This document shows positions 10,946 to 48,340 of a stretch of DNA of 64,000 nucleotides, in pieces. The notes beneath the pieces are model-generated. The model searched no databases, was not told where the DNA came from, and saw only the letters and a list, made by a program, of their open reading frames with translations. Position numbers and translations under genes: made by a program. Origin of the DNA: an uncultured Ignavibacteriota bacterium (GTDB taxonomy: Bacteria; Bacteroidota; Ignavibacteria; UBA10030; UBA8401); NCBI GenBank assembly GCA_903884005.1, contig CAISDA010000020.1, forward strand, positions 1 to 64,000. Reading direction: 5' to 3'. Numbering within the stretch: the first letter of the stretch is position 1; each line of letters starts with the position of its first letter.

Positions 10946-11845
10946 ATGGATCGCAGAAAATTTTTAAGCGCCGCGGCGCTTGCCGCACTCGCGCCGCTGG
11001 CGGCGCGCACGTCCTATGCGAAATCGATGGATATGCTCTTGCAGATCGATGACGATGAAAAAATTTGCATGTCGAAATTCGAATTTTCCCTCGCCAAAAA
11101 ATTGTCCGACCGTCCGATCAATGAAGTGATGATCGAGATCGGAAAAACATTCATCGGCACCGAGTACGTGGGGCATGTGCTCGAATCCGACGGCGACGAA
11201 AAGCTTGTCGTGAATATGCGCGCGCTGGACTGTGTCTCGTTCTACGAAAACTGCCTCGTGCTGGCGCGCTGCGTGAAACTGAAAAAATATACGTTCGACG
11301 AATACAAGCGCCAGCTCACGTTCGTGCGCTATCGCGGGGGCGTCATCAACGGGTATCCGAGCCGCCTGCACTATACGACCGACTATTGGTTCGATAACGA
11401 GAAGAAGGGAGTGCTGAAGGTCGTCACGGCGGACATTGCCGACGACAAGAACCTGCAGCCGATTCCCAAGCCCATCAATTTTATGTCGACGCACCGCGCA
11501 TCGTACAAGCAGCTGGCGAACGACGCGTTCTACGAGGAGATCAAAAAACAGGAAGACGCGATCAACGCGCGCAACCTTGTCTTTCTGCCAAAGGGGAACG
11601 TGCACATGTTTGCCGACAAGATCGAAACCGGCAGCCTCATCGGCATCACGACGAACATGAAGGGCATGGACATCAAACATACCGGCGTCGCGATACGCAT
11701 GGAGAACGGCGATCTGCATTTCATGCATGCGCCGATCACCGGGGCCAAAGTGCAGATCACGCCGACCACGCTGCACGACTACCTCGCAAAATTCAAGGAC
11801 GATACCGGCATCATCATCGCGCGGCCGCTCGAGCCGAAAGCCTGA
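10946..11845 (+). CDS. Tat-exported DUF1460 amidase-like protein
   Basis: A 299-residue protein of the DUF1460 group, whose structures resemble NlpC/P60 cysteine peptidases acting on cell-wall peptides. The N-terminus MDRRKFLSAAALAALA is a twin-arginine signal, so export is probably in folded form. The likely catalytic cysteine is C96 in LDCVSFYENC and the histidine H245 in KHTGVAIR. Peptidoglycan-fragment amidase activity is inferred from family structure. A GC-rich hairpin (10896-10921) separates it from dnaB, and a GGGAAC ribosome site precedes the ATG. Confidence 0.85.
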   Translation: MDRRKFLSAAALAALAPLAARTSYAKSMDMLLQIDDDEKICMSKFEFSLAKKLSDRPINEVMIEIGKTFIGTEYVGHVLESDGDEKLVVNMRALDCVSFYENCLVLARCVKLKKYTFDEYKRQLTFVRYRGGVINGYPSRLHYTTDYWFDNEKKGVLKVVTADIADDKNLQPIPKPINFMSTHRASYKQLANDAFYEEIKKQEDAINARNLVFLPKGNVHMFADKIETGSLIGITTNMKGMDIKHTGVAIRMENGDLHFMHAPITGAKVQITPTTLHDYLAKFKDDTGIIIARPLEPKA

Positions 11846-11928: not shown

Positions 11929-13644
11929 TCACTCCAGGTTCGTTGCGACAACGGCGACGGCTTTCAGCGCGCGCAGCACTCCGCCCCGCACATCCAGCGC
12001 CTCGACGAACACAATATACATGCCCATCCGTACGCGCGTGTTCGAATCGTCCCTCCCGTTCCAGATGATTGTGCCTGCAGACGCGGCGGGTTCGTTGTTG
12101 GCCAGTGTCCGGACGAGCCGCCCGGCTGTATCATAGATGCGCACGCGCAGGGCGGGGGCCGCCGACGGAAGCGCATAGGCGATCCCCAAAAAATCCTCGA
12201 TGCCGTCATTGTTCGGCGAGAACGGATTCGGCGACAACACGAGCGACGCGTCGGCCGGAACCGCCGACGTAAAGATCGAGTTCTGCACGCCCGGGGTGCC
12301 GCCGCGCGCGGCAACCGACGTGCTCCAATTGCGCGGATCGGCGCCCGAAAGCAGTGGATTGATGCGCTCAAGGGATTTTCCCGCGGTCGTGCATTTGGGG
12401 AGATGCCACGAGGGAGAGTAGCGCACGCTGTCGACGGTCGCTCCCGACGGATCGAAGAGGATCACATCATCGCCCGAGTTGTTGAGCCCGAGCGAGGGGA
12501 CGACGATCACGTTCGCCGTTTCACCCGGACTCACATTCATCATGTCGATGACCGAAGAATCCGTCGCGATGACGCACAGCGAGTACGGCGGCACGGTGTG
12601 GGACGAGCGCGGCAGCGGAATGGTGACACGGTTTTTCACGGTGCCCGATGCATCGCCCATGTTCCAGGTGCCCAGGTCAATGGTTGCAGCGCTGCGATTG
12701 TAGAGTTCCACATACTCCGGAGCACCCGCGCGCGGTTCATACATGATCTCGTTGATCACAAGGGCGTGGGCGGGGGTTCGGACGGCGAGGACCGCGGCGG
12801 CGGCATTATTGGATGTGTCCTCATCCGCCGGCAGCGACAAGCGGAAGCCGAGTCTGTGTATGCCTCCGTCGATGCGGGGGTACGTCAGAGTGACAGCGAA
12901 CGAATCACCTGCGGCGAAGAAATGTGTGAACGCTGTGTCCGCAATGTGCCTGCCGAGCGTCGAATCGATCATCGCGAGTGCGCACGCATACTCGCCTGCA
13001 TCCGCCTTGTTGCGCACCGTCAGCGTGCACGGCACATCATCCCCCGCGGTAACAAGCGGCGTCACCGCGGGTGCGGCATCGAGTGCCAGGTCCGCGCTCT
13101 TCTGCACTGAAATTTGAATATCGTCGATGCGGAGCGTTCCGGTGGCGCCAGTGCCGTTGCCGAGCGTGCGCCAGCGGAACCGCACGAGCGATTGTCCGTT
13201 CACCGATGCCGGCAGCGCAAGCACACGGCGGATATAGGACGAAGAACTTGCAAGCAGCAGCGTATCGGAAAAGGGCGTCCACGACGATGAATCATCGCGC
13301 ACGGAGGCTTCAACGAGCATCCCCGCGGTGAACGAAGCGGAACGGCGTTCGTAGAATTCAACCGAGGAGGCGACTCTGCCGCTGAACGACAGCATCGGCG
13401 AAACGAGACACTGCCCGATGCGGGCATCGGTCGAGAGCGCGGCCAGCGGCGCCGAGAGCGGCGTGGCGGATGATGTGGTGAAGTCTCCCGTCGACGACCG
13501 CGCCTTTGTGGTCGTCCATCCGGCGGGCAGCAACGGAACGCGCGCCGTATCGAACGTTTCCCGATACGGGAACACCTGCTGTGCGAGTGTGTGTGCCGGG
13601 ATCACTCCGAGGCACAGGAGAACTGCCGCAATGCATGCTTTCAT
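11929..13644 (-). CDS. Secreted lamin-tail-domain protein with C-terminal sorting-like domain
   Basis: A 571-residue exported protein. The ATG at 13644 starts the signal peptide MKACIAAVLLCLGVIPAHT; the open frame extends to 13797 but only upstream of this natural start. The middle holds a CARDB/Ig-like region (about 200-300), then a lamin tail domain beginning LVINEIMYEPRAGAPEYVEL (about 305-440). The last ~100 residues, beginning LSPNPFSPNNDGIEDFLG and ending with the RMGMYIVFVEALD strand, resemble FlgD-Ig/T9SS C-terminal domains. A surface or extracellular structural role is likely; no catalytic motif is seen. It is convergent with the DUF1460 gene and divergent from the VanZ gene. Confidence 0.8.
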   Translation of the reverse strand: MKACIAAVLLCLGVIPAHTLAQQVFPYRETFDTARVPLLPAGWTTTKARSSTGDFTTSSATPLSAPLAALSTDARIGQCLVSPMLSFSGRVASSVEFYERRSASFTAGMLVEASVRDDSSSWTPFSDTLLLASSSSYIRRVLALPASVNGQSLVRFRWRTLGNGTGATGTLRIDDIQISVQKSADLALDAAPAVTPLVTAGDDVPCTLTVRNKADAGEYACALAMIDSTLGRHIADTAFTHFFAAGDSFAVTLTYPRIDGGIHRLGFRLSLPADEDTSNNAAAAVLAVRTPAHALVINEIMYEPRAGAPEYVELYNRSAATIDLGTWNMGDASGTVKNRVTIPLPRSSHTVPPYSLCVIATDSSVIDMMNVSPGETANVIVVPSLGLNNSGDDVILFDPSGATVDSVRYSPSWHLPKCTTAGKSLERINPLLSGADPRNWSTSVAARGGTPGVQNSIFTSAVPADASLVLSPNPFSPNNDGIEDFLGIAYALPSAAPALRVRIYDTAGRLVRTLANNEPAASAGTIIWNGRDDSNTRVRMGMYIVFVEALDVRGGVLRALKAVAVVATNLE

Positions 13645-13949
13645 GCTATCCCCCTCATGAAGTGCGTAACCAAGCGCAAAATAAATGAAATGAACCCGAG
13701 ATGCAACACCGAGGTGCGCCGGGCAGAACGCCTTGGCCAAAACACCTCGGCGAAAAAAACTCGGCGAAAAAACCTCGGACAGAGGGTCCTGTTCCATTCA
13801 GGTGCGAGACATCGATGACGGTCCGTGTGCGGTACTGCTGTTGAAAAAAAAACCTGCCGCTCTGCCGTGCTGCGGCCGTGCTGCGGCTTGAATGTGACGG
13901 CATTCTTCTGTATCATTTATGGAGAATCCAACAATTCACACCGGATGCC
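13645..13949. other. Divergent intergenic region with short direct repeats
   Basis: This 305-base gap separates two divergent genes. It holds a short tandem run of CTCGGCGAAAAAA-like units at 13745-13779 and a CGTGCTGCGGC doublet near 13867-13886. No gene or RNA is evident; it must contain the promoters of both flanking genes, which I cannot place. Confidence 0.5.
13745..13779. repeat. Short tandem repeat CTCGGCGAAAAAA
   Basis: Two and a half units of CTCGGCGAAAAA(A)A occur in a row, the last truncated to CCTCGGAC. They could be an operator or slippage product upstream of the LTD gene. Confidence 0.5.
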
Positions 13950-15050
13950 ATGCGCACACATCAGACTCCATTTCAACGATACCCGCTGCGCTTCCTGCTC
14001 TGCTGTGTGCTCTGTTTCTATATCCTGACGCTGTACCCGTATAACTTTCGGCAGAACAATAATGCGGTCTTCTCGGTCGGCCTTTCTCTGACGTCGCCCG
14101 GAACCGGATATACAACGCACCCTCACGAGGCGCTGGCGCAATTATATCAGTTCACGATACTGCTCCACCTCTCGCCCGAGACCGACGATTTGGGCCGCAC
14201 GGGGCGCATCTTCAGCTCGGCAAAAGACTTCTACTCCCAGAATTTTGCGATTTCCCAAGTACGCAACACGCTCACTATCCAATTGTTCAGCCGCGATTCG
14301 CGGCACTATAACGAAGTGACGATCCCCGACGTGTTCAGGACGAAAGATCCGCTCTGGATAGCCATTACGTTCACTGGCGACATTCTCCGCTGCTATGTGA
14401 ACGGGGTCAAGAAATCGGAACGCAAAACAGGCCCCATGGCCCTGACACAGTGGGATGCCGCCGATCCTCTCGTCGTCGGCACGGACCCTAATGGATTGCT
14501 GCAGTGGGAAGGAATACTGCATACGGTGGCGATCCTCGACCGGTCGTGCACGGAGACAGAATTGCAGAGGCCGGTCTTGATTTTTAAAAAATATTCTTCT
14601 ATCATTCACTACGAGTTCGATCAGGGGAGGACGCTTTATGTCCGATCGAGCGGTACGGACGCCGATTCGCTTTACGTGCCGGCGCTGTATCAGCCATACA
14701 GCAAGGTAACACTGTTCGATACATTTCACTTTTTGGGGAAGCAGCGGCTCTCTGTCCGAGACATCGCTGCTAATATTTTGTTTTTCCTTCCGGTTGGTTT
14801 TTTTTCAACGTTATTTTTTGGTCGTGGCGTAAATACTAAGGCTGCCATCATCACGCTTTCGGTGATCATGGGCATGTCGCTTAGTGTCAGTGCAGAAGTT
14901 CTTCAAATATTTTTACCCAGCCGCTATTCCAGCATGATCGACGTGCTCAGCAATACGATGGGAACGGCGTTCGGCGCAATAGCGGGTCTTATTCATTCAA
15001 ACAAAGGAATGCATGATGACCAGCGGCGAAATGTTGAAGATCGATCCTGA
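13950..15050 (+). CDS. LamG-like domain fused to VanZ-type membrane domain
   Basis: A 366-residue membrane protein. After an N-terminal membrane segment (LRFLLCCVLCFYILTLYPY) comes a LamG/concanavalin-like beta domain (about 45-220; NGVKKSERKTGP and GTDPNGLLQWEGILHTVAILD are typical strands). The C-terminal VanZ region (about 265-355) has DIAANILFFLPVGF, a hydrophobic helix and the SAEVLQIFLPSRYSSMIDVL signature with conserved E and D. VanZ-like domains occur in antibiotic-resistance loci and in polysaccharide clusters; the LamG part suggests glycan binding outside the membrane. The start ATG at 13950 is chosen over an upstream GTG. The coding end overlaps nadE by 38 bases. Confidence 0.82.
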   Translation: MRTHQTPFQRYPLRFLLCCVLCFYILTLYPYNFRQNNNAVFSVGLSLTSPGTGYTTHPHEALAQLYQFTILLHLSPETDDLGRTGRIFSSAKDFYSQNFAISQVRNTLTIQLFSRDSRHYNEVTIPDVFRTKDPLWIAITFTGDILRCYVNGVKKSERKTGPMALTQWDAADPLVVGTDPNGLLQWEGILHTVAILDRSCTETELQRPVLIFKKYSSIIHYEFDQGRTLYVRSSGTDADSLYVPALYQPYSKVTLFDTFHFLGKQRLSVRDIAANILFFLPVGFFSTLFFGRGVNTKAAIITLSVIMGMSLSVSAEVLQIFLPSRYSSMIDVLSNTMGTAFGAIAGLIHSNKGMHDDQRRNVEDRS

Positions 15051-16032
15051 ACAGGAGATCGAAAAAATCGCGCACGTGATACGCAAGACGGTGCGGACCA
15101 CGATGCGGCGCCGCGGCGCCGTGGTGGGCGTATCCGGCGGGATTGACAGCGCCGTCTGCGCAGCGCTCTCCGTGCGTGCGCTCGGCAGCGGCAACGTGCT
15201 GGCGCTTCTGATGCCCGAGCGCGACTCATCGGCGATCTCGAAACGCCTCGGCCTGGAATTGGCCGACACATTTTCCATCCCGTGCGTCGAAGAAAATATC
15301 ACGCCGATCCTCGAAGGCGCACGCTGCTACGAACGCCAGCTCGAAGCGATCAGGCATGTGTTCCCCGACTACGGCGAAGGATGGAAAAACAAAATCATCC
15401 TTCCATCCATCCTCGACGGCGACCGATTGAACGTGTCGCGCCTGACCGTGCAGACGCCCGAAGGGGAATACAGGACAGAGCGTCTGCCGATGAACCAGTA
15501 TTGCCAGCTCGTGGCTGCGACGAATTTTAAACAGCGCATCCGCACGATGATGGAATATTACCACGCCGACCGGCTCAATTACGCCGTGTGCGGCACGCCG
15601 AACCGGCTCGAATACGATCAGGGGTTCTTCGTGAAGGGCGGCGACGGACTCGCCGATTATAAACCCATCGCTCATCTCTATAAAACCCAGGTCTATGCGC
15701 TGGCGCGCGCCCTTGGCGTGCCCGAGGGCATTTGTTCGCGCACTCCGACCACCGATACGTATTCGCTCGAGCAGACACAGGAAGAATTTTATTTCGCCCT
15801 GCCGTACGAAAAAATGGATGCCTGTCTGTACTCGTTCAACCATGCTCTCGCTCCCGAGACTGTCGCCGCGTCTCTGGGATTGACCGCCGACCAGGTCATG
15901 CGGGTCTACAACGATATCGAGGCGAAACGGCGCGCGACACTGCCGCTTCATCTTCCGGCGCTGACGATGGAAACAGTGGATCCCATTGCAGCGATGATCG
16001 ACGATAGTAAAAAAAACAACTACTCAGCATAA
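15013..16032 (+). CDS. NAD+ synthase (NadE)-like enzyme
   Basis: A 339-residue NadE-type ATP pyrophosphatase with P-loop VSGGIDSAVCAAL near residue 40 and the GTPNRLEYDQGFFVKGGDGLAD region that binds the dinucleotide. There is no glutaminase (nitrilase) domain, so it would be ammonia-dependent. An insert of about 60 residues between the P-loop half and the GTPNR half (LEAIRHVFPDYGEGWKNKII and following) makes it longer than the usual ~275-residue bacterial NadE. It starts inside the VanZ gene and precedes an acyl carrier protein and an acyl-CoA ligase. In that setting it may amidate or adenylate a glycan or lipid precursor instead of making NAD; either is possible. AAAGGA precedes the ATGATG start. 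Confidence 0.8.
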   Translation: MMTSGEMLKIDPEQEIEKIAHVIRKTVRTTMRRRGAVVGVSGGIDSAVCAALSVRALGSGNVLALLMPERDSSAISKRLGLELADTFSIPCVEENITPILEGARCYERQLEAIRHVFPDYGEGWKNKIILPSILDGDRLNVSRLTVQTPEGEYRTERLPMNQYCQLVAATNFKQRIRTMMEYYHADRLNYAVCGTPNRLEYDQGFFVKGGDGLADYKPIAHLYKTQVYALARALGVPEGICSRTPTTDTYSLEQTQEEFYFALPYEKMDACLYSFNHALAPETVAASLGLTADQVMRVYNDIEAKRRATLPLHLPALTMETVDPIAAMIDDSKKNNYSA

Positions 16033-16043
16033 TCATTAGTCCC

Positions 16044-16164
16044 TGTCATTCTGAGGGAGCTCGAGCGACCGAAGAATCTAAAAAGCATCAACAGCGGGGA
16101 ACATGAATTTATTGCTGCATGTATCAATCACTGTTTTAGATCCTTCGCTTCGCTCAGGATGACA
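16044..16164. repeat. Inverted dispersed repeat, family B
   Basis: TGTCATTCTGAGGGAGCTCG plus GAAGAATCTAAAA on the left is mirrored by TTTTAGATCCTTCGCTTCGC and TCAGGATGACA on the right, around a ~55-base spacer. This MITE-like inverted structure follows the nadE stop and could act as a transcription stop for the cluster upstream half. Confidence 0.7.
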
Positions 16165-16246
16165 ATGATTTGGTGCGCACTGTGTAGGTAAGTAAAAAAA
16201 ATAATAGAAGTTCTCTTCAGTGTTCACGAGAATGGGGGGAAAGAGT

Positions 16247-16507
16247 ATGGCACAGATCGATGTTCGCGACCAGGTCCATCAATTCATCCGGGACAATTTT
16301 ATATTCGACGACACCAAGACCGTCGACGGGCAGACATCGCTGCTCGGATCGGGCATTGTCGACTCGACCGGCATTCTGGAACTCATCGGATTTCTTGAAT
16401 CACAGTATAGCCTGAAGTTCAACGACAACGAACTCATCGGTGAAAACTTCGATTCGATCGACAAAATCACCGCGTTTTTGGAAACAAAAATGGACGGCCA
16501 TCACTAA
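16247..16507 (+). CDS. Acyl carrier protein
   Basis: An 86-residue phosphopantetheine-binding carrier. S40 in GIVDSTGILELIGFLE is the attachment serine, and the acidic helix after it is typical. The open frame begins at 16220, but the ATG at 16247 (MAQIDVRDQV) has a strong GGGGGAAAG ribosome site directly upstream. It is not the fatty-acid AcpP of the fab operon; the setting between a NadE-like enzyme and an acyl-CoA ligase-like enzyme suggests a dedicated carrier that receives an adenylated acid. The ligase gene follows after 41 bases. Confidence 0.88.
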   Translation: MAQIDVRDQVHQFIRDNFIFDDTKTVDGQTSLLGSGIVDSTGILELIGFLESQYSLKFNDNELIGENFDSIDKITAFLETKMDGHH

Positions 16508-16548
16508 GTGCGTCCTGCGCCACGAGACCAAAGAAGGAGGCGTCCTTT

Positions 16549-18060
16549 ATGCTGATCCACGAATATCTTTCACAGACGGCAGCACGGTTTCCCGAAAAAA
16601 TTGCGGTGGTCTGCGCAAAGCATCGCATCTCGTATGGCACGCTCAACCTGCGCGCGAAAAATTTTGCCGCCTTCCTGCTCACGCAGGAGCTTGAAAAAGG
16701 GGACAGGGTCGCAGTGTTTATCGACAGCACCATCGACGCCGTCGTCGCGATCTTCGGCGTCCTGCAGGCCGGCGGATGTCTCGTCATCGTCAATCCCTCG
16801 ACACATCCGGACCGTCTCGGGTTCATTGTGAACGATGCCGGCGCCAAATTTATCGTCGCCGCCGCCGAAAAAATAGCGGCCGTGAAACAAGCGTGCATGC
16901 AGTGCGCCGTGCCTCCCGGTCTTATCCTGACAGGCCAGTTCGACGCCGATGAATCGTGTGCCGGTTTTGAGCAGGCGTGCACGACGGAACTGCCGTTCGC
17001 ACCGCCGAAGATCATCGATGAGGATCTTGCCGCCATCATTTACACGTCCGGATCGACAGGCAAGCCCAAGGGCGTCACGCATCTCCACAGGACGATCGAT
17101 GCCGTCGTCGACACTGTCTCGGGCTATCTGGAACATACCACCGATGACGTCATACTCGGGGTGTTGCCGCTTTCCTCCAGCTACGGACTGCTGCAGGTGC
17201 TGGTGACCTTCTTCACCGGCGGGCGCATCATTCTCGAACGCGGTTTCGGATATCCATACGAGGTCATCCAGAGGATGAAGGATGAAGGCGTCACGGGGTT
17301 TGCGGGCGCGCCGACGGTGTTCGCGATCATTCTCCGGCTCGAAGGCCTTGAGCGTGAAGACTTTTCGCGGCTTCGCTACATCACGAATGCGGCTGCGGCG
17401 ATGCCTCCGGCATTCATCCCGCAGCTGCGAAAAATATTCCCGTCAACAAAAATATATTTGATGCACGGCCTCACCGAATGCCTTCGCACAACGTATTTGC
17501 CGCCGGAGGAGATAGACGCGAAGCCGACCTCCGTCGGGTCCGGTATGAAGAATGTTGAACTCTGGCTCGAAGACGCCGCCGGGAACCGCGTGCCCGCCGG
17601 ACACGTGGGAGAGATGATGGTGCGCGGCTCGAACATCATGCAGGGATACTGGAACGATCCCGATGCAACGGCGAAAGTACTCAAGCCCGGACGGTATCCG
17701 TGGGAAAAAACGCTCCGCACAAGGGATCTCTTCATGACCGACGACGAAGGCTATTTCCATTTCGTGGCGCGCGAGGATGAACTCATCAAGAGCCGTGGAG
17801 AAAAAGTGAGCCCGGTCGAGGTGGAGGATGTGCTCTACAGGCTCGAGGCGGTGCTCGAAACGCGCGTGATCGGCGTTCCCGACGCTGTGCTGGGACAGGC
17901 GATTCGTGCGGAGATCGTGCTCAAGGAACATCACACGCTGAGCGTGCAGGAAGTGAAATCGCATTGCCGAAAAAATATGGAAGATTTTAAAGTGCCGCAG
18001 CACATCGAATTTGTCGCATCCCTCCCGAAGACGCAGGGGGGGAAGATCAAACGGACGTAG
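16549..18060 (+). CDS. AMP-dependent acyl-CoA ligase-like synthetase
   Basis: A 503-residue ANL-superfamily adenylating enzyme. The A3 ATP-binding motif IIYTSGSTGKPKG is near 164-176, LMHGLTECLR matches A5, the A8 hinge region is REDELIKSRGEKVSP near 410-425, and the A10 lysine is in KTQGGKIKRT at the very end. It adenylates a carboxylic acid and passes it to CoA or, by context, to the carrier protein encoded just upstream. Enzymes of this type occur in exopolysaccharide/exosortase-type clusters. The start at 16549 has an AAGGAGG site, and the substrate is unknown. Confidence 0.9.
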   Translation: MLIHEYLSQTAARFPEKIAVVCAKHRISYGTLNLRAKNFAAFLLTQELEKGDRVAVFIDSTIDAVVAIFGVLQAGGCLVIVNPSTHPDRLGFIVNDAGAKFIVAAAEKIAAVKQACMQCAVPPGLILTGQFDADESCAGFEQACTTELPFAPPKIIDEDLAAIIYTSGSTGKPKGVTHLHRTIDAVVDTVSGYLEHTTDDVILGVLPLSSSYGLLQVLVTFFTGGRIILERGFGYPYEVIQRMKDEGVTGFAGAPTVFAIILRLEGLEREDFSRLRYITNAAAAMPPAFIPQLRKIFPSTKIYLMHGLTECLRTTYLPPEEIDAKPTSVGSGMKNVELWLEDAAGNRVPAGHVGEMMVRGSNIMQGYWNDPDATAKVLKPGRYPWEKTLRTRDLFMTDDEGYFHFVAREDELIKSRGEKVSPVEVEDVLYRLEAVLETRVIGVPDAVLGQAIRAEIVLKEHHTLSVQEVKSHCRKNMEDFKVPQHIEFVASLPKTQGGKIKRT

Positions 18061-18399
18061 CGCTTTCCCCTCTTAAGGAACTCACAAAAACATGCACCGC
18101 TTCGCTCGAGCGGGCGAGATACCATCTCGCCCGCTCGCGATATGGCATTTCGCCCTGCACGTGCGGTACAGGTGTCATCGCGCGCTGCCGCCGCGAGGCC
18201 GTTCGTTGTCGACGATCAATGAGTGCTGCCAATGCAAATTTCGATCTCTGAGAGTGATTTAGCCTGAATTATTCACGAAAATACCGTATCATAGAGTGGT
18301 ATTCCAAAGACAATACATTCAGCACGTGCCGCTGAACAAGGCACTCATTCAGAATGACGATCATGCGAGCGCATACGATGTCATACACAGGGAGAACCG
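18061..18399. other. Intergenic region with repeat
   Basis: This 339-base gap holds a full-length family A repeat (18081-18140) and a short relic of family B (TCATTCAGAATGACGAT, about 18347-18363). Between them I see no gene, RNA or clear terminator. Confidence 0.5.
18081..18140 (+). repeat. Dispersed palindromic repeat, family A, long form
   Basis: CTCACAAAAACATGCACCGC then TTCGCTCGAGCGGGCGAGAT-ACC-ATCTCGCCCGCTCG. The first part matches the copy at 31047-31100 almost base for base, defining a unit of at least 55 bases whose end is a strong hairpin. Confidence 0.75.
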
Positions 18400-19566
18400 T
18401 TGGGAAAAAAAATATCGATCATTCTTGGCACACGACCGGAAGCAATAAAACTCGCCCCACTTATTCTTGCACTGAAACACACCGCCTCGTTTACGGTTGA
18501 AGTATGCGTGACCGCACAGCATCGGCAGATGTTGGACCAGGTGCTCACCATCTTCAACATCGTTCCCGATGTTGATCTCGACCTGATGAAGCCGAACCAG
18601 ACACTGGCATCGCTCACCTCGGACGCCATCCGTGCGGTTGACGGCTACATTCGGGATTCGAAGCCCGACATGGTGCTCGTGCAGGGCGACACCACAACCG
18701 TGTTCGCCGCCTCACTCGCCGCGTTCTATCAGAAGATCCCTGTCGGCCATGTTGAAGCCGGACTGCGCACGGGAAATAAGTATTCGCCATTTCCGGAAGA
18801 GGTCAATCGATTGATCACCTCCAGACTGGCGGAGCTGCATTTTGCACCGACCATTGCGGCACAGACGAATCTGGCTGCTGAAAACATCGCCGGCAAGGAC
18901 ATCTTTGTCACCGGCAATACCGTCATCGACGCCCTGCTCATGGTGACCGAAAAAATTTCCAATGCTGTTCCCGATATCCCCGGATTGCCCGCGGAACTTT
19001 TCACTGGAACCGACAGGCGGAAAATTGTCCTGATTACCGGCCACAGAAGGGAAAATTTCGGCGAAGGATTTTTCACGATCTGCCGCGCGATCGCACGGCT
19101 TGCCGAACGGTTCACGGACGTGGCGTTTGTGTATCCGGTGCACCTCAACCCGAATGTTCAGTCGCCGGTGTATTCGATGCTCTCGGGCAAGGAGAACATA
19201 TATCTCATCGCCCCCGTCAGTTATGTACCGTTCGTCGCGCTCATGCGCCGCGCAACGGTGATCTTGACGGATTCAGGAGGAGTGCAGGAGGAAGCGCCGA
19301 GCCTGGGGAGGCCGGTATTGGTGATGAGAGACACAACCGAGCGCCCTGAAGCCGTCAGCGCCGGAACAGCGAAGCTGGTCGGGACCGACGAAGACCTCAT
19401 CGTGTCCTCAACAGCCAGGCTCCTGGAGGATCCTTCGGAGTATGACCGCATGGTGAACGCTGTGAATCCGTACGGCGACGGCAAGGCGGCCGAACGCATC
19501 GTCGGTATTCTGTCGCATTATTTTTACGGCACAGCGCTGCCTGAACCGTTTGTTGCAGGAAGCTGA
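18400..19566 (+). CDS. wecB: UDP-N-acetylglucosamine 2-epimerase (non-hydrolysing)
   Basis: A 388-residue enzyme interconverting UDP-GlcNAc and UDP-ManNAc for envelope glycans. Recognised by ILGTRPEAIKLAPLI at the N-terminus, VQGDTTTVFAASLAAFY, HVEAGLRTGNKYSPFPEEVNR, and the substrate-binding DSGGVQEEAPSLGRPVLVMRD. The start is a TTG with a well-placed GGAGAA at 18391; the nearby ATG at 18378 is out of frame. It follows the NadE/ACP/ligase genes and is consistent with an envelope polysaccharide or lipid-linked glycan function for the whole stretch. Confidence 0.93.
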   Translation: MGKKISIILGTRPEAIKLAPLILALKHTASFTVEVCVTAQHRQMLDQVLTIFNIVPDVDLDLMKPNQTLASLTSDAIRAVDGYIRDSKPDMVLVQGDTTTVFAASLAAFYQKIPVGHVEAGLRTGNKYSPFPEEVNRLITSRLAELHFAPTIAAQTNLAAENIAGKDIFVTGNTVIDALLMVTEKISNAVPDIPGLPAELFTGTDRRKIVLITGHRRENFGEGFFTICRAIARLAERFTDVAFVYPVHLNPNVQSPVYSMLSGKENIYLIAPVSYVPFVALMRRATVILTDSGGVQEEAPSLGRPVLVMRDTTERPEAVSAGTAKLVGTDEDLIVSSTARLLEDPSEYDRMVNAVNPYGDGKAAERIVGILSHYFYGTALPEPFVAGS

Positions 19567-35950: not shown

Positions 35951-36639
35951 GCCCCGAAACGCCGTGAATGTTCTGCATGTGCCCCCTTCACTCATAATGC
36001 AAACCATGCATGGCTCATGCGCAAATCGTGCATAACGGCGGTCCATAACCCCCATAAAAATTGATATTTAAGCGAAAATATATGGCACGAAGAATGCACC
36101 CCTTCAGGCGGTGCATGGCCGCACGATGCGTACGTTCACTCTCAACATTGTGCGATGCATGATGTTCCTGCGCCGAGGATGAGAGACTGTCATTGAAAAA
36201 ATATCGCGCCACAGGAATCCGACCCGGCGACAGATGGCGCTGCCGATTTGCCGATGTGATACAAAACACAACAATTGCATTAACTTCTTTTAACTTAGTA
36301 TTAGTTGACATTAGAGAACACTTTTTATAATTTCCTTTAATATTCTCACGAAATTTACATCTTTCAGGGGGCATGCTTCGAGTGCGTGGTGTCGTGCGGG
36401 GCGCCCACAGTCCGGCGGATCTCTATCGTAAAGAGTGTCTGCAGATGCCTGATCAGAACGCTTCCCCTATCCGGACCAGAGTCATTATATAATAGAAGCC
36501 GCCAGTCAATCGGTCTATTGGGTCCCAGTCGTCTCGTTGAATTTTCGTTCAAATTAATTTATTGTATTAATTTCAAATATGTCCTGTTTTCTCTAATATC
36601 CTGTAGGAATAATTTAATTAGGTACATTTTTTAAAATAC

Positions 36640-36668
36640 TTGACATAATAACCTATTGTCTTTATATT
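36640..36668 (+). promoter_or_regulatory. Consensus-like sigma-70 promoter
   Basis: TTGACA at 36640-36645, a 17-base spacer and TATATT at 36663-36668. This is an unusually perfect match to the E. coli-type promoter in a genome whose other promoters look Bacteroidota-like. It points towards the gene at 37102, which begins about 430 bases downstream. Confidence 0.4.
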
Positions 36669-36967
36669 AAACGCGTATCTTTGTGTATGGACTCATGATA
36701 CACCCTGATTCTTATTGTGCACGCAAGCCTTCTTAATTCAAAATGGCGCACGCGGTGGCGCACTTTTCCATGTACGCACCCGGTTGTGGCTCTCTGCTGT
36801 CCGAACCAGCGCACATTTTGTCAATGGATAATAAAGAGTAGTAAATTAGCATTACCATCACAACATAACGGCTGATTCTTTGAATGAACAAGCAATTTAA
36901 CAAAGATCAACAATGTTTTTCCACCAACACAAGGAGCGAACCGAATGAACAGATTGAACAATACTAG

Positions 36968-37001
36968 TTGATCAAAATGTTTTTACCCTTTCGTAAATTT
37001 G
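36968..37001 (+). promoter_or_regulatory. Candidate promoter of the 2235-residue protein gene
   Basis: TAAATTTG at 36994-37001 is an exact TAnnTTTG box. The nearest TTG is at 36968-36970, with a 23-base spacer, longer than in the other candidates. Leader length would be about 95 bases. Confidence 0.35.
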
Positions 37002-37101
37002 TTTTTTTGTTATACGAAGGGCAGTGATGAAGATTCGCAAAGAACGACTTTGTAACAAGGCTTCAAATCTCTTACTTAACTACCATAAACAGGAGTAACA
37101 A

Positions 37102-40100
37102 ATGAACTCTAAAAACATCTTTAAGATGGGTGCGGTTGTTTTCGTACTCTCTCTGATGTTGAGCTCTTTCGTTTTGGCAGGTACTCGCTACGTCAATAGT
37201 TCGAACGGCGATGACTTGCTCAATAACGGTCTGGCTCCAACCCAAACAGCAGTAGGTGTCGGCCCATACAAGACCATCGCAGTGGCGATCACAGCGGCGG
37301 CGGACGGTGATGTTATCAGCATTGCTGCTGGTGCATATGCCGAACTCGGCGCTGCGATTACTGTCAACAAGAGTGTCACGTTGATTTCAACGACATTTTT
37401 GTCCAGCAATACCGCTACAATTACTTACGGACTCATTATTAATGGTGCGGCTAAAACCATTAATCTTGGTCGTACAGCAGATGGAAGTTTACAGTTTGAT
37501 CTCGGAACAACGGCAACAGCCCTGGCCCTTACGGCCGGTACGTTGAATGTCGATACAAATACAACAATCGGAAGCGGTGCAACGATCACACGCACCAACG
37601 GTGTGTTGAGCGGATCGTTCACCACAACAAATGTTAACGTCACATACGGCGGTGCGACTGCGAATGTAACCGCAGGCACGGAACTTCCGTTGTCTCTTGG
37701 TACGGGTTCATTGACAGTGAGCAATACCGGATTCACCGTGACATTCCCGAATGCGATCACGACATCGGGCAGCATCACGCTGACCGTCGGTGGTGCGACA
37801 TTCAATGGCAATGTCACAGTTAATACCGGATCACTCACGAACAGCGGTGCGGGCACGCTTCGTATCGTTGGCAACGTCGCGATGAACGGCCTTGTTGCCG
37901 TGACATCGGGCAGCATTTTGAATACTGCTGCTGGTACCTTGCAGATTGATGGAACGGTTACAAATGATGCATTAGTTGGAAACATTCCTGGGGTGATCTG
38001 GAACACAAACCTTGGAACATTGACAGTCGGTGGATTAGCAACGTGGAAGATGTATGGTACGAACTTCGGTGCCACCGCGATTGCCAACACAAGCGGCGGC
38101 GCAGGAACAGTCACATTATCTGGCGGCGTCTCCTTCACGAAGGTCGCCGGTACGGCGGCTGCAGCTGGAGCTGCGAGTGCAACAGCAGCAATTATCAATA
38201 GCGGTTCAGGAACAATGACGATCGCTTCCCTTGCAGTCGTATCGGGAGCGGCACCGACCACAGTCTACACGCCTGTTGTTTCGGTGACGAACTCAACAAC
38301 CGGTACGTTGGCAATTAGTGGAACTGCCGCGGTTACAGGTACTGCGGTAAATACCGCGGCTGGAACATTGACGTTCGGTGGTTCTGCCGCAATTGCAGGA
38401 ACACTCACAAACACAGGCGCGGGAACGATCAACCTCACCGGCGGAACAACCACAGGTGCTGTGGCGAACGACGGCGGCGGCAATATCGTGATCCTTGCGA
38501 ACACAACATTCGCGGGCAACGTCAGCAACAATAACGCTGGCAGCGTGATTAAATTGAATGCGAATACATTGACGCTTTCAGCTGTTGGTGGAACGGTGAC
38601 AAACGCCGGCAACATCATTTCCACTTCGGCAGCTGCTGCAGGCAGCGGCGTTCTCTCGCTTTCGGGCGGCGCAACGATCAACAGCGGCGGTGGAATTCCT
38701 AATGTGACAGTTGGTGCCACATCGGTCATCGGTGCGGTTACAACTATTTGGGGTAATCTCACGATTACCGCAGGCACATTGACGATCAATGATGCAGGCA
38801 ACGCTTCATCAACCGTCAAGGGCAACATTGCTTTGAACGGCGGCGGACTCACACTCGGGACCGCGGGCGTCAATACTGACGGCAGTTACACACAGCCCGG
38901 CGGCACATTGACATTCGGTGTGCGTACAATGGCAGTAAAAGGCAACGTGACAATGACATCCGGCTCGGTTGTACCGGGAACCGGAACATTGTCCTTTGTG
39001 TCTGGAACAGCGGGTCAGTCATTTACAATGCTTCCTAATTTTGCATTGAATAATATGACGATCACAAGCCCTGGCCAGGTTGTTACATTGGCTGCATCGG
39101 TGATGATCCTGAATAATGTTACGATCGCTTCCGGTTCGCTCGACCTCGGCATGAACAACCTGCGTATGCAGGGTGCGGCCGGCACGTTTACCAATACGGG
39201 CGGATACACATCGACCGGCGGCGGAACGTTGATTTTTGAAGGTACAGGCGGCAACCCCACAATTACGGGTGCAGGTGTTTTCTCAAACATCGACATCCGT
39301 TTGGGCTCTGCCAATTACGTGACGATGGGTTCAGCGGTCACAGTTTCCGGTATCGTGTATTTACGATCCGGTGATATCGATCTGAACAGCAAGGCATTGA
39401 CACTGAATTCAACCCTGGTCAGGCCTGCGATCTATAAGAACACGCTTCCCGGTTTTGGAACTGCAAAGATCGTGGATCTTGGTGCCGGCGGAACAGTGTC
39501 GGTGACAACAGACTACGATTTGACATACTATGGCGGCGCAAACTGGCCTGGCGCAAGCTTCGGTTCAGAATGGGTTGCAGCGAAATTGCATAACCTGACA
39601 GTCGGTACTGGCGACGCAGGTAATGCATATACAGTTACACCCCCCGCTGGTGCAGTCACGATCACAGGCAACCTGACGGTCAATTCGAATCAGACGCTTA
39701 GCCTTGCGGCTGCCGGTACATTGACGGCAAGCGCGGCAAGTGCGGCACATTCGATCGTCGGCGCAATTACCAACGGTGCGCTTGTTGTGAGCGGAAATTC
39801 AGCCACAGTGACAGGCGTTTCTGGCGCTGTTGCAGTTGAGTTTGCATCTGTAAACGATCTCACACTGACCGGCACGGGCATCGGTGTGACAAATTTGAAG
39901 ATCGTCTCTGGAAATCTTGCGATTTCCGGCGCCGGTGCAAATGTCACCATGAATACGACCTCAGGCGTTGTGACTGGAAACATCACAGTTGCGATGACAT
40001 TGGTCACGGATGCGGCGACAGTCAACATTGCTTCGACCACGTCCACACACGGCGGCAACTTGGTAGTGACAAACGGTGCGCTGACCTATACGCGCGGTGC

Positions 40101-43100
40101 GGCTGCTCAGCAGAACATCGGCGGCACGGTCACATTGACGGCTGGCTCGCTTACACTTGGCAGCAGCGTTAATGTTACTGGCGCAACGTCCATTGTTGCT
40201 GGCAACCTGATCATGGGTGCGTTTAATTATACACAAAAAGGATCCGTTGCAACACCTGACTTCATTCGTACAGGTGCAGGCACGGTTACCGGCACAGGCA
40301 CGTTGGTATTTGACGCTACTGTTGCAGCAATCGACGTAACACCGGGCACGACTTTTGCGCCGGTTAACGTTACCTTCATCGGTGCTGCAAACGGAGTCAC
40401 GTTGAACGCAGCTATGGCAATTTCGGGTACCATTGTTAACACAAGCGGCATTACGACGCTTGGTGGCGACCTGACCTGGTCAGGAAGCACATTTACCTTC
40501 ACGGCTGGTTCATTTGCCACAACCGGAGGCGGTTTTGTGATCACGGGTGCAACCCCGACGATTACGGCTGCGGCCGCGGCCGCAATGTCAGTGGCAGGCG
40601 GTATCACGGTGAACTCAACGGGCGTGCTGAAACTTCGCTCGAGTGCAGAAGCAACACCTACACCGAGAACCTTTACATCTACCGGTGCATTCACACAGAC
40701 CGCGGGTGATGTCGATCTCGGCATCAACACGTTGGCTGTGACAGGCGCAAGCTTCACGCGCACTGCAGGCAACTGGGCCATGGGTACAGGCGTCTTGACG
40801 CTGAACTCAGCCGCTATCGCATTTGCACCCGGCGTTGGAATGTCAGTGAAGAACTTGACAATATCCAACACGATGACACTTGGCGGTACGAATGCGTTCA
40901 CGGTGACAGGCGGACTCTCGCTTGCCAACGCGCTCACACTTGGCACAGATGCCTTACTCACGATTGGCGACGGTGCAACAATTACTATGACCGCAGCCGC
41001 TGCAGTGCTTGACAAATTGCCCGCCTTCCCGGCAAGCAATAACTACAACGTCGTGTACAATGCAGCCATGACCACCGGAAAAGAACTCGGTGCAGTGGTG
41101 AACAACCTCACAACAACGGCAGCAGTAACATTGAATGCGGCTGAGACGGTGAACGGTACATTGGCGATCGGCGGCGGTACATTGCTGAATGCAACGGCAA
41201 AGAACGTGACGTTCGGACCCGGCGGCATCTTGGAAATGGACGCGGCAGGTGCTCTTACAATTGCAATCATTCCCCCGGCATCGGGTGTGTTGAACATCGT
41301 GTATAACGGTGTTACAGCAACATCGAGCTTCGATTGGCCGGCAACGGCTAACGTTGGTTCGGTCACGATCAAGGCAGCAACACAGTTACATGCCGATCGT
41401 ACGGTCCAGGGTACATTGACGTTAAACGGTGGCAGCTTGGATCTTGGCTTGGCGGCGGCACATACGCTGACAGTCCAGGGTGATGTTGTCGTAGCAAAAA
41501 CAGGCAACTTCTTCGCATCAACAACTGCAGGTAGCTACGTTGCGTTCGCCGGTGCCACAAACACGGCGTTCACACTGTTTGACAACCCGACAGCCGTTCC
41601 TGTAAATGTCAACATCAAAATCAACAAGACAAACAGCACGAATATGGTGACGCTTGGCGGCGGAAGCTTGAACTTCGCAACCAACTCTGCAACGCTGTAT
41701 TTTGCGAATGGTCTGTTGGCAACTGGCACGAACGTTATCACATTGAAACAATCAGTCTCTGGTGGACAGCCGGTGCAGGGCTTCGATCGTTCAGCAATTA
41801 CCGGAACGAATGAGAGCCATGTGTTCGGAAATGTCCGTAAATTCATCGATATTACTGCTCCTATTGCCATCAGCCGCGTTGAATTCCCGACGGGCTCTTC
41901 GGTAACAGCGCCGTTCTATCGTCCATTTGTTACCTATTTCAAGACAACACCACAGAACTCCATCAACATGACGGTCAACCATGTTGACACGCGTGCCAAT
42001 GGCTCAACCGGCTTCCCGATTGCGGTCACCGGCGGCCAGCCGATCACGAACTATCCGAACTTCTATTGGTTCGTACAGTCGGACATTTCGCTGAATCCTT
42101 CGTATCAGTTTGATATGGAAGCACAGGCAAAGGGTTATTCGGACTATGTGGCAAGTGACATTACAAATATCCGCTTTGTGCGCCGCGATTCAGGCAATGT
42201 GGCAAACAAGTGGATCCTTCAGGCCAGCGTCAATGGTGTCTATGACAACTCGACGTTATACGGCTTGGTCTGGCCCGCAGTGAAGGTGATCGATGCAACG
42301 GGTGGTATCACGTCGCAGGGTTCGATCTTTACCTATAGCCAGAGCAACAAACCTCCAATATTCACGGCTGCTCCCGGCAACATGAAAAGTACAGAAGCCG
42401 ATACGTTGAAAGTTACATTTACGTCCGTCGATCCTGACTTGAACCAAACATCAACATTGAGTTTGGTTGCTGCCCCGACAGGTGCGACACTCGTTGGTGG
42501 ACTCTTAACCTGGCCCATCGGCTATGATGCAGTTACTGCAGCTCAGGGAACGAAGACCTATTCGTTCACAGTCCGTGCAACAGACAATAGTGGTCTTGCC
42601 GCATTCCGCGACACGACTTTTATTGACACTGTGTATAACAAGGTCCGTCCGCCGCAGTTTGTTGCGAAACCGGCAACGTTCTCGGTAAAAGACAGCACGA
42701 ATTCACTTAGCTACACGTATACGGCAACTGATGTTGATGGCAATGCCGTAACATTCTCGCTTGCAGCAGGTTCACCGGCAGGAATGTCGATGACTGCAGT
42801 TGGATTGTTGACATGGACGCCGACATTTGTTCAGTCGTCGGCAGCCGGTATTGCATATCCGATTAAAGTATATGTTGCCGATGCATATAATGGAAAAGAT
42901 TCCGCTACAGCAGTTGTAACGGTTATCCGTAAACGCTTGAAGGGCGACATCAACGCTGATGGCGTTGCAGGCGGCACGGCAGATGCTACAATCGCATTGC
43001 GCGCAGCTGTTGGATTGAAGACCTTTACCATGCCAGCAGACACAATCGACTACTGGGCTGGTGATGTCTCTGGTGTCAACGGTGTTGGTGCATACGATGC

Positions 43101-43809
43101 GGCACTTATGCTGACCAAATTGTCTGGTGACAATACGGTCGTATTTGCACCGAAAATCGCTCAAGCCTTCAGTGGTTCGGTCGAATTCGGTAGTGCAGTA
43201 TCGGGTGGCAACTCAGTTTCAATCCCGGTGAAAGTAACAAATGCTGAAAATGTCACAGCGATCACATTCACTGTGAACGTTGATGCAAAGACTGCCACGT
43301 ACGAAGGCACGTCGACATCATTGCCGAAGGATTGGATCGTCGCGACATCAAATGTGGACGGTGTCGTTACGGTTGCAATGGCTGGCTTAACACCGGTCAA
43401 CTCGGGCAATGTTGCATCAGTCAACATCAGCTTGAAAGACAAAGCGGCACAGATCAGCCTCAGCGGTTCAGGTTTTGTGAACGAAGCTGCCAGCCAGACC
43501 TTGTCGCTTGAAAACGTTCGCTTGATCCCCAGCGAATACGCGTTGGATCAGAACTATCCTAACCCGTTCAATCCTTCGACGACCATTAAATATCAGCTGA
43601 CACAGGATTCGAAAGTTAATCTGACGATCTACAATTTACAGGGTCAGGTTGTTCGCACCTTGGTCAATGATAACGTTGCTGCAGGTTTCCAGAGCATTTC
43701 CTGGAACGGCAAGAACGAAATGGGACAGACGGTTGCAACTGGTATGTATGTGTATCGCATCCAAGCCGGTTCGTTCGTGTCTGTGAAAAAAATGCTTATG
43801 TTGAAGTAA
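37102..43809 (+). CDS. Giant secreted T9SS adhesin-like protein with dockerin- and cohesin-like modules
   Basis: A 2235-residue exported protein. Signal peptide 1-27; a right-handed beta-helix-type start (about 28-110, RYVNSSNGDD and GPYKTIAVAI); then over 1500 residues of threonine/glycine/alanine/valine-rich repeats without cysteine, likely an extended beta structure. Two Ig-like (He_PIG-type) domains span about 1746-1940, followed by a dockerin-like calcium segment (about 1945-2012: KGDINADGVAGGTADATIAL and DYWAGDVSGVNGVGAYDAAL), a cohesin-like beta domain (about 2020-2135) and the T9SS C-terminal domain (2145-2235: ALDQNYPNPFNPSTTIKY, GMYVYRIQAG). GGAG precedes the ATG. It is probably a cell-surface or extracellular scaffold protein. 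Confidence 0.9.
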   Translation: MNSKNIFKMGAVVFVLSLMLSSFVLAGTRYVNSSNGDDLLNNGLAPTQTAVGVGPYKTIAVAITAAADGDVISIAAGAYAELGAAITVNKSVTLISTTFLSSNTATITYGLIINGAAKTINLGRTADGSLQFDLGTTATALALTAGTLNVDTNTTIGSGATITRTNGVLSGSFTTTNVNVTYGGATANVTAGTELPLSLGTGSLTVSNTGFTVTFPNAITTSGSITLTVGGATFNGNVTVNTGSLTNSGAGTLRIVGNVAMNGLVAVTSGSILNTAAGTLQIDGTVTNDALVGNIPGVIWNTNLGTLTVGGLATWKMYGTNFGATAIANTSGGAGTVTLSGGVSFTKVAGTAAAAGAASATAAIINSGSGTMTIASLAVVSGAAPTTVYTPVVSVTNSTTGTLAISGTAAVTGTAVNTAAGTLTFGGSAAIAGTLTNTGAGTINLTGGTTTGAVANDGGGNIVILANTTFAGNVSNNNAGSVIKLNANTLTLSAVGGTVTNAGNIISTSAAAAGSGVLSLSGGATINSGGGIPNVTVGATSVIGAVTTIWGNLTITAGTLTINDAGNASSTVKGNIALNGGGLTLGTAGVNTDGSYTQPGGTLTFGVRTMAVKGNVTMTSGSVVPGTGTLSFVSGTAGQSFTMLPNFALNNMTITSPGQVVTLAASVMILNNVTIASGSLDLGMNNLRMQGAAGTFTNTGGYTSTGGGTLIFEGTGGNPTITGAGVFSNIDIRLGSANYVTMGSAVTVSGIVYLRSGDIDLNSKALTLNSTLVRPAIYKNTLPGFGTAKIVDLGAGGTVSVTTDYDLTYYGGANWPGASFGSEWVAAKLHNLTVGTGDAGNAYTVTPPAGAVTITGNLTVNSNQTLSLAAAGTLTASAASAAHSIVGAITNGALVVSGNSATVTGVSGAVAVEFASVNDLTLTGTGIGVTNLKIVSGNLAISGAGANVTMNTTSGVVTGNITVAMTLVTDAATVNIASTTSTHGGNLVVTNGALTYTRGAAAQQNIGGTVTLTAGSLTLGSSVNVTGATSIVAGNLIMGAFNYTQKGSVATPDFIRTGAGTVTGTGTLVFDATVAAIDVTPGTTFAPVNVTFIGAANGVTLNAAMAISGTIVNTSGITTLGGDLTWSGSTFTFTAGSFATTGGGFVITGATPTITAAAAAAMSVAGGITVNSTGVLKLRSSAEATPTPRTFTSTGAFTQTAGDVDLGINTLAVTGASFTRTAGNWAMGTGVLTLNSAAIAFAPGVGMSVKNLTISNTMTLGGTNAFTVTGGLSLANALTLGTDALLTIGDGATITMTAAAAVLDKLPAFPASNNYNVVYNAAMTTGKELGAVVNNLTTTAAVTLNAAETVNGTLAIGGGTLLNATAKNVTFGPGGILEMDAAGALTIAIIPPASGVLNIVYNGVTATSSFDWPATANVGSVTIKAATQLHADRTVQGTLTLNGGSLDLGLAAAHTLTVQGDVVVAKTGNFFASTTAGSYVAFAGATNTAFTLFDNPTAVPVNVNIKINKTNSTNMVTLGGGSLNFATNSATLYFANGLLATGTNVITLKQSVSGGQPVQGFDRSAITGTNESHVFGNVRKFIDITAPIAISRVEFPTGSSVTAPFYRPFVTYFKTTPQNSINMTVNHVDTRANGSTGFPIAVTGGQPITNYPNFYWFVQSDISLNPSYQFDMEAQAKGYSDYVASDITNIRFVRRDSGNVANKWILQASVNGVYDNSTLYGLVWPAVKVIDATGGITSQGSIFTYSQSNKPPIFTAAPGNMKSTEADTLKVTFTSVDPDLNQTSTLSLVAAPTGATLVGGLLTWPIGYDAVTAAQGTKTYSFTVRATDNSGLAAFRDTTFIDTVYNKVRPPQFVAKPATFSVKDSTNSLSYTYTATDVDGNAVTFSLAAGSPAGMSMTAVGLLTWTPTFVQSSAAGIAYPIKVYVADAYNGKDSATAVVTVIRKRLKGDINADGVAGGTADATIALRAAVGLKTFTMPADTIDYWAGDVSGVNGVGAYDAALMLTKLSGDNTVVFAPKIAQAFSGSVEFGSAVSGGNSVSIPVKVTNAENVTAITFTVNVDAKTATYEGTSTSLPKDWIVATSNVDGVVTVAMAGLTPVNSGNVASVNISLKDKAAQISLSGSGFVNEAASQTLSLENVRLIPSEYALDQNYPNPFNPSTTIKYQLTQDSKVNLTIYNLQGQVVRTLVNDNVAAGFQSISWNGKNEMGQTVATGMYVYRIQAGSFVSVKKMLMLK

Positions 43810-43824
43810 GGAATATCAAATAAT

Positions 43825-43856
43825 CTGCGGAGCGATTCGTCGCTCCGCAGTTTCTT
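43825..43856 (+). terminator. Terminator after the giant adhesin gene
   Basis: CTGCGGAGCGA and TCGCTCCGCAG form an 11-pair stem with a 4-base loop, followed by TTTCTT. This is a good intrinsic terminator. Confidence 0.75.
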
Positions 43857-43909
43857 ACAACCAACACTTAGCAGAGAAGTACTTTTTGAAAACTAAACAA
43901 GAGGCTAAA

Positions 43910-45646: not shown

Positions 45647-45670
45647 TCGTCACTACATAAAGTTTTTTAT

Positions 45671-45710
45671 ACGACAGGCGATCCGAATAGGGTCGCCTGT
45701 CGTGTTTATA
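45671..45710 (+). terminator. Terminator after the second T9SS gene
   Basis: ACGACAGGCGA and TCGCCTGTCGT make an 11-pair stem around 11 bases, followed by GTTTATA. The T-run is weak. Confidence 0.65.
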
Positions 45711-45884
45711 TGCGGACATGTGGCTTATTGAGAATGTAGAAATGTTAAAATTGAAATGAAGTATTATGAATTTATATGGGTAAATTGTATATTTCATCAT
45801 TGGCTTGATTATTGCTAAATTTCCATTGGCATCAAAAATAATAGTGATGAGTTGTTAGCTATTCATACATGAAAGGGTTCCACT

Positions 45885-48065: not shown

Positions 48066-48094
48066 CGATGCAATAATTGGTTCAGACACACCTC

Positions 48095-48127
48095 GGGCGA
48101 TTAGAAATGATCGCCCGTCGTGTTTTA
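48095..48127 (+). terminator. Terminator after the third T9SS gene
   Basis: CGGGCGAT and ATCGCCCG make an eight-pair stem with an eight-base loop; TCGTGTTTTAAA follows. Confidence 0.65.
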
Positions 48128-48335: not shown

Positions 48336-48340
48336 CCCTG

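Follow-up and report, generated by a model that had tools for sequence, protein, structure and literature searches.

A NadE-like protein encoded with an acyl carrier protein, an adenylating ligase and AsnB in several bacterial phyla: a candidate module for carrier-bound amidation

Why does a gene of the NAD synthase family lie next to genes for an acyl carrier protein (ACP) and an adenylating ligase? This question is raised by positions 13950-19566 of a 64,000-nucleotide stretch of DNA from an uncultured Ignavibacteriota bacterium (contig CAISDA010000020.1, assembly GCA_903884005.1), which we refer to as the window. At this locus, we confirmed five open reading frames (ORFs), arranged head to tail on the + strand, for a LamG-VanZ membrane protein, a NadE-like protein, an ACP, an ANL ligase and WecB; together with their family matches, they bear out the cluster described in an earlier note that was made from the sequence alone. 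That note had proposed an envelope-glycan or lipid modification in which the ligase loads an acid on the carrier and the NadE-like enzyme amidates it or another precursor. The core of this idea is partly supported by the present analysis and can be made more specific: we lean slightly towards the explanation that AsnB, ACP, ANL ligase and NadE-like protein form a carrier-protein amidation module that serves to decorate the envelope or exopolysaccharides, in which the acid, its amidation and the acceptor are inferred.

Results

The NadE-like gene (15013..16032; this and the other features of the locus are on the + strand) encodes a NadE-like ATP-pyrophosphatase of the PRK00876 subfamily (NF002048/PRK00876, 496 bits (496.3) versus a cut-off of 313). 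The protein was said to be free of a glutaminase domain and to carry an insert of ~60 residues, and both features were confirmed: no glutaminase domain was found in it, and the insert, delimited by alignment and model, comprises ~57 residues (approximately residues 103-159; 15319..15489). The insert is a trait of the PRK00876 subfamily and not limited to the window's genome; Cys105, Tyr106 and Lys127 are invariant in the 53 of 92 NadE-like rows that make up the alignment with insert residues.

An AlphaFold (AF2) model of the protein (predicted local distance difference test (pLDDT) 94.8) was best superposed on NadE structures (3fiu, Z 29.9, root-mean-square deviation (rmsd) 2.5 over 238 residues, equalled by the structures at ranks 2 and 3). 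In the alignment, the ATP-side motifs are largely as in canonical NadE. The ATP-pyrophosphatase fold and the SGGxDS loop are present, and in the P-loop SGGIDS (residues 41-46; 15133..15150) S, G, G, D and S are invariant across NadE-like and canonical rows. By contrast, the P2-loop reads PTTDT (residues 245-249; 15745..15759) while the canonical motif is P[TS]A[DG]L: Thr247 and Thr249 are present in 92/92 NadE-like proteins, and the same columns hold Ala and Leu in 17/17 canonical proteins (16 from the window's genome and its relatives, one from E. coli). Ala573 and Leu575 in the P2-loop of human NadE (hsNadE) contact both the AMP phosphate and the nicotinic moiety (PMC6946656; here and below, papers are cited from excerpts), and their match to the Thr247 and Thr249 columns is based on the spacing of the motifs and not on a superposition. 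As read from the alignment, the NadE-like protein has thus lost the nicotinate contacts, Ala and Leu having become Thr and Thr. In the comparison of insert and active site suggested in the earlier note, the insert is real, and the residues at the contacts to the nicotinic part of nicotinic acid adenine dinucleotide (NaAD) are replaced. In a quickly built tree, in which the E. coli branch is very long, the 92 NadE-like and 17 canonical proteins fell on the two sides of a single branch with full support in the Shimodaira-Hasegawa-like approximate likelihood ratio test (SH-aLRT). The two groups are alike in fold and ATP-pyrophosphatase core and differ in the insert, the P2-loop, the gene neighbours and the patchy distribution of the NadE-like group. 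A natural reading of alignment and model is that the NadE-like protein would be an intact ATP-pyrophosphatase with another carboxylate substrate.

A second nadE of the kind that the earlier note had suggested looking for, a canonical one, is present in the window's genome on C83 (E 6e-78), and the NadE-like gene is not a sole nadE with an intact NaAD site. The NadE-like model scored above its cut-off in 15/60 relatives (the window's genome counted), and a separate canonical match was present in 15/15 of these. Another NAD synthase gene was also found in a further 15/15 genomes chosen from other lineages (out of 77 named contigs), although in 3/15 of them as a weaker match (E 1e-22 to 1e-29, long frame), giving 30/30 NadE-like-bearing genomes checked. 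Because of the canonical nadE elsewhere in the genome and these 30/30 genomes, we conclude that housekeeping NAD synthesis is not the task of the NadE-like protein. The name NAD(+) synthase given to the subfamily by NCBIfam and in plasmid annotation is probably wrong. No alternative glutaminase partner emerged from a published survey of nadE operons, and the NadE-like paralogue is unmentioned in the excerpt of that survey (PMC3376133).

We collected loci with the NadE-like gene as the only bait, obtaining 14 from relatives and 80 from named genome contigs (the best 80 of 111), and dropped three duplicates (L054, L055 and L077, counterparts of L045, L043 and L051, respectively), leaving 91 loci in which rhizobial genomes are over-represented. 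With hidden Markov models (HMMs) for the ANL ligase, ACP, AsnB, a tandem-GNAT acyltransferase (GNAT4) and a HemK-type methyltransferase with an NPPY motif, all built from these same loci, we detected the ligase in 86, ACP in 81, AsnB in 82 (81 above 90 bits) and all three in 72 of the 91 loci. GNAT4 was present in 32, the methyltransferase in 26 and a strong LamG-VanZ match in three. An earlier clustering of the loci had given 83 for the ligase, 72 for ACP, 66 for the AsnB cluster and 85 for the NadE-like protein. Among 15 canonical-nadE loci from 15 set-carrying genomes, none had the ligase, ACP, AsnB, GNAT4, the methyltransferase or LamG-VanZ. The statement that NAD synthesis does not explain the neighbours therefore stands, based on the second nadE, the replaced nicotinic contacts in the P2-loop, the recurrent set and the empty control loci.

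The complete set of ligase, ACP, AsnB and NadE-like protein is found in seven phyla: in 12/14 loci of the window's order of Bacteroidota, 25/27 of Pseudomonadota, 13/16 of Myxococcota, 13/17 of Planctomycetota, 3/3 of Actinomycetota, 1/1 of Gemmatimonadota and 1/6 of Acidobacteriota, as well as in 4/5 loci without phylum assignment. The single Thermodesulfobacteriota locus and the single Latescibacterota locus have a partial set. Thus, from the grouping of NadE-like protein, ACP, ligase and VanZ proposed earlier, the first three recur together across phyla with a control of 0/15, while VanZ does not. Neither of the two findings that the earlier note had named as refuting its idea was obtained.

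Set-type AsnB (at least 764 bits; next best match 365) was present in 14/15 NadE-like-positive relatives versus 0/45 negative ones, and GNAT4 in 9/15 versus 0/45 (Fisher p 9e-13 and 3e-7, respectively, values that ignore kinship). In the sole positive genome without AsnB (G058), the contig ends just past the NadE-like gene, where an AsnB fragment begins (38 bits, L050). Around the Sinorhizobium meliloti genome G071, 34/100 genomes have the NadE-like gene and those same 34 have AsnB, 31 of the 34 being close relatives with a NadE-like identity of at least 88%.

In the window's genome, the members of the set are divided between two separate loci. AsnB (C2:81419-83404) lies away from the NadE-like locus and tail to tail with GNAT4 (C2:80160-81368), the pair spanning G000:C2:80160-83404; both lie outside the window and were thus beyond the sight of the first reading. 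In G011, from the same family as the window's genome, NadE-like protein, AsnB, ACP, LamG-VanZ, GNAT4 and ligase are encoded in one cluster, which links the pieces that are split in the window's genome.

The stand-alone ANL adenylating ligase (16549..18060) matches Pfam AMP-binding above cut-off. Its pocket segment is nearest to VinN among solved structures (74.7 bits, next family 36.8), as is that of the S. meliloti ligase (112 bits, next family 54). In VinN, Arg331 binds the free carboxylate. The window ligase has Arg313 at this position, in the short loop TECLR (17473..17487), and Ser211 of the LSSSYG segment (17170..17187) at the position of VinN Asp230, an amino-group contact; hence, among the VinN-type features, the short loop with the Arg331 equivalent is present while the Asp230 equivalent is replaced. 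The substrate of VinN, 3-methylaspartate or aspartate, is bound as a beta-amino acid, the key residues of the enzyme being Asp230, Phe231, Ser299, Lys330 and Arg331 in a pocket with a loop one residue short (PMC11253843).

We counted these residues in 85 ligases, including that of the window and leaving out the short fragments L067 and L133 from the 86 loci. The short VinN-type loop with Arg is present in 69/85, and Asp at the 230 position in 53/85. Positions 230 and 299 covary without exception: Asp or Asn is paired with Thr or Ser in 54 ligases, and all other residues (S/T/G/V/C/I) are paired with Ala in 31. The window ligase, with Ser211, Ala281 and Arg313, is of the second pocket type. Given Ser at the Asp230 position, its acid may be a dicarboxylic acid without an amino group.

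Two other contexts suggested by database matches were rejected. Linear gramicidin synthase was the top PDB match and would suggest a nonribosomal peptide synthetase (NRPS); however, this score sums two A domains, and the pocket segment alone clearly gave VinN. Similarly, the exosortase A-associated families ligase_PEP_1 (TIGR03098; 428.7 bits, cut-off 592) and amidotransferase (TIGR03108) are the best NCBIfam match of the ligase and the second-best of AsnB, respectively, but both are below cut-off, and a search of the window's genome for exosortase (PF09721) gave no match, the same search being positive in only 1/14 control genomes.

The gene between the NadE-like gene and the ligase gene (16247..16507; ORF 16220-16507, which opens with GTG at 16220, likely start 16247) was without a match in a Pfam search and had only sub-cut-off NCBIfam matches, the best being ACP_for_OlsHI (41.9 bits); there is also a weak, sub-cut-off likeness to AsbD and AmcB. 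We label it ACP based on these weak family matches, a V-D-S-T motif (16358-16369) and the gene position. Upstream of it, between the NadE-like and ACP genes, lies a stretch resembling an inverted repeat (16046-16170; TCATTCTGAGG... and ...CTCAGGATGA). The window has two copies of the 10-mer TCATTCTGAG (at 8470 and 16046) versus 0.12 expected, and the stretch looks like a dispersed palindromic repeat.

An operon with the same four families on one strand, asnB - ACP - ligase - nadE, is present on pSymB of S. meliloti. ACP, ligase and NadE-like genes are adjacent there as in the window; by contrast, AsnB is encoded elsewhere in the window's genome, and LamG-VanZ and WecB are added in the window. 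The 2009 paper that named the S. meliloti ACP reportedly lists the four genes in its abstract. Judged by the replicon, the cotranscription of ligase and ACP genes (PMC7232532) and this abstract, the operon corresponds to the locus of SMb20650 (ligase) and SMb20651 (ACP). Expression of the S. meliloti ligase in Escherichia coli gives acylated ACP, formation of the holo-ACP has been reported, and the ligase does not replace FadD, as growth of fadD mutants on oleate is not rescued (PMC7232532). Thus, the claim that the ligase loads an acid on the carrier has outside support, from a pair that was already known in S. meliloti. The excerpts of PMC9386255, PMC5686131, PMC6158461 and PMC10315480 contain citations or a remark on expression only. 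In the literature that we searched, only the SMb20650/SMb20651 papers bear on the set, and we found neither an assigned function nor a description across phyla.

The GNAT4 model has a tandem-GNAT fold similar to N-myristoyltransferase (Z 20.7) and Eis (Z 19.8) at 7-12% identity and, on this model, would fit acyl transfer. In the GNAT4 alignment, 4/32 loci were left out for lack of a suitable start, and L125, L126 and L131 by choice. A second GNAT4 of the window's genome is encoded on C37, beside glycosyltransferase and polysaccharide deacetylase genes identified by HMM; it heads a polysaccharide-type cluster (G000:C37:262-13700, L152) in which a sugar transferase, further glycosyltransferases and ATP-grasp-like genes were recognized by eye. 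A wecB-family gene lies further along C37, at 35903.

The NPPY motif is present in 26/26 methyltransferases of the set, which were placed in the HemK family by family names. PrmC members of this family methylate a glutamine amide nitrogen, an activity that would suit an amide product. The single match in the window's genome is 33% identical and perhaps an ordinary PrmC; the genome seems to be without the set version.

With HMMs, polysaccharide-type neighbours were found in 47/91 set loci versus 0/15 canonical-nadE control loci, a count biased in favour of the set loci because these HMMs were built from the neighbours of the same loci.

The remaining two genes of the locus are not part of the core. 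The LamG-VanZ gene (13950..15050; ORF 13878-15050, Met at 13950) scores above cut-off for two Pfam families, VanZ (48.8 bits) and Laminin_G_3 (44.6 bits), and is one of two VanZ matches in the window's genome. Its reading frame overlaps that of the NadE-like gene (15050 versus 15013), and this overlap suggests that the two genes are on one transcript. The wecB gene, for a UDP-N-acetylglucosamine (UDP-GlcNAc) 2-epimerase (18400..19566; TIGR00236, 508 bits), is the best of three wecB-family matches in the genome and, in a survey of neighbours, was seen beside the set at no loci other than those of the window and its congener (L045/L054). The earlier inclusion of VanZ and WecB in the pathway was therefore dropped, for VanZ in view of the 3/91 loci with a strong match; both are local additions.

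Elsewhere in the window, ORFs at 36015-48671 have a third-position GC of 0.39-0.55 versus ~0.65-0.75 for most surrounding genes, and FlgD-like Ig, cohesin, Ig or type IX sorting domains occur in the secreted products of three of these ORFs. A protein of the AmiA-like N-acetylmuramoyl-L-alanine amidase family is encoded at 10946-11845, and the adjoining gene on the opposite strand (11929-13797) is for a lamin-tail protein that carries a type IX sorting domain.

Discussion

In the mechanism that we slightly favour, ACP would first be phosphopantetheinylated. The VinN-like ligase would then adenylate a small dicarboxylic acid, often an aspartate-like one, at one carboxyl and load it on ACP, the other carboxylate staying free. 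This free carboxylate would be adenylated and amidated by the NadE-like enzyme, and AsnB would provide a glutamine-dependent amidation in the same pathway. Finally, an amine or hydroxyl of an envelope or exopolysaccharide precursor would receive the amidated acyl group through the action of GNAT4 or another acyltransferase. In some lineages the module would include GNAT4 and the HemK-type NPPY enzyme, the latter N-methylating the amide.

Several known systems resemble parts of this scheme. In vicenistatin biosynthesis, as proposed here, a stand-alone ligase (VinN, the nearest solved pocket) loads an aspartate-like acid on a discrete ACP (VinL); there, however, VinO then decarboxylates (PMC11284099), while in the present set two amidating enzymes accompany the ligase-ACP pair. 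The likeness to the Dlt and Alm systems is one of logic only. These systems also use a small carrier and a transfer to an envelope polymer; to our knowledge, they have no amidotransferases. Their adenylating ligases are DltA and AlmE (PMC11253843).

A number of observations weigh against the amidation module. In the stretch examined, the ligase is missing from 5/91 loci and ACP from 10/91; L072 (10 kb on both sides) is without ligase and ACP, and L132 without ligase, ACP and AsnB. ACP is absent in 5/6 Acidobacteriota loci, and a fused or diverged ACP, sought at E values up to 5 in the 10 loci without ACP (these five included), was not found. The loop is one residue longer in 16/85 ligases, for which the comparison with VinN is weak, and most loci without ACP carry such a long-loop ligase; for this reason, the carrier may not be universal in the set. 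Moreover, in the window's order 12/14 set loci are without a polysaccharide-type neighbour by the HMMs used (2/14 with), GNAT4 was met only in this order and in Pseudomonadota (Bosea counted), and NF002048 scored above cut-off in 1/14 named control genomes. AsnB does not adjoin the set in the window's genome or in its congener; since the AsnB on C2 is also the only close AsnB homologue of the genome, it could be the housekeeping asparagine synthase. Finally, a single amide does not neatly account for a set with two amidating enzymes.

Separately, four Acidobacteriota loci (L061, L062, L076 and L078) have the NadE-like protein, AsnB and a long-loop ligase with no ACP detected, and perhaps represent a carrier-free or coenzyme A (CoA)-using version of the set.

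Three other explanations were considered. That the product of the set is a small secreted molecule (a siderophore-like compound or a beta-amino-acid natural product) and not a polysaccharide decoration is unlikely, yet it fares best among them: the ligase pocket is nearest to that of VinN, an enzyme of a macrolactam pathway, and the weak likeness of ACP to AsbD and AmcB points the same way, while the polysaccharide-type neighbours in 47/91 loci argue against it, as does a Pfam scan of a handful of neighbour representatives, not a systematic search, in which no polyketide synthase (PKS) or NRPS family was found. Somewhat less probable still is that a membrane lipid (an aminoacyl lipid or one similar to ornithine lipids) is the final acceptor of the carrier-bound acyl group, with GNAT4 as the lipid acyltransferase. 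This would agree with ACP_for_OlsHI as the best, albeit sub-cut-off, family match of ACP, with the similarity of the GNAT4 model to N-myristoyltransferase and Eis and with VanZ being a membrane protein; however, the neighbour types modelled and found are glycan genes, and the failure of the S. meliloti ligase to restore fadD mutants on oleate (PMC7232532) makes a long-chain acid less likely. Most doubtful is that the NadE-like protein is an auxiliary NAD synthase that travels by chance with an ACP-ligase operon, for although it shares the NadE fold (3fiu), the ATP core and the subfamily name, both nicotinic contacts are replaced in 92/92 proteins, it lies on its own side of the tree, its linkage is strict to AsnB and frequent to ACP and ligase, and another NAD synthase gene is present in 30/30 genomes.

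The amidation module can also be phrased more boldly, as a proposal that we put forward tentatively and consider possible rather than probable: a NadE-fold enzyme would have been recruited from NAD synthesis to amidate an ACP-bound dicarboxylic acid and, with AsnB and the VinN-like ligase, would supply carboxamide acyl groups for extracellular polysaccharides in seven phyla, the two coupled pocket types corresponding to amino-acid and non-amino-acid versions of the pathway.

S. meliloti is a model symbiont, and through this set its orphan operon gains a testable function and is linked to its counterparts in Planctomycetota, Myxococcota, Actinomycetota, Gemmatimonadota, Acidobacteriota and Bacteroidota. 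If the amidation module is real, carrier-tethered amidation would join the known ways in which bacteria decorate their surface polymers.

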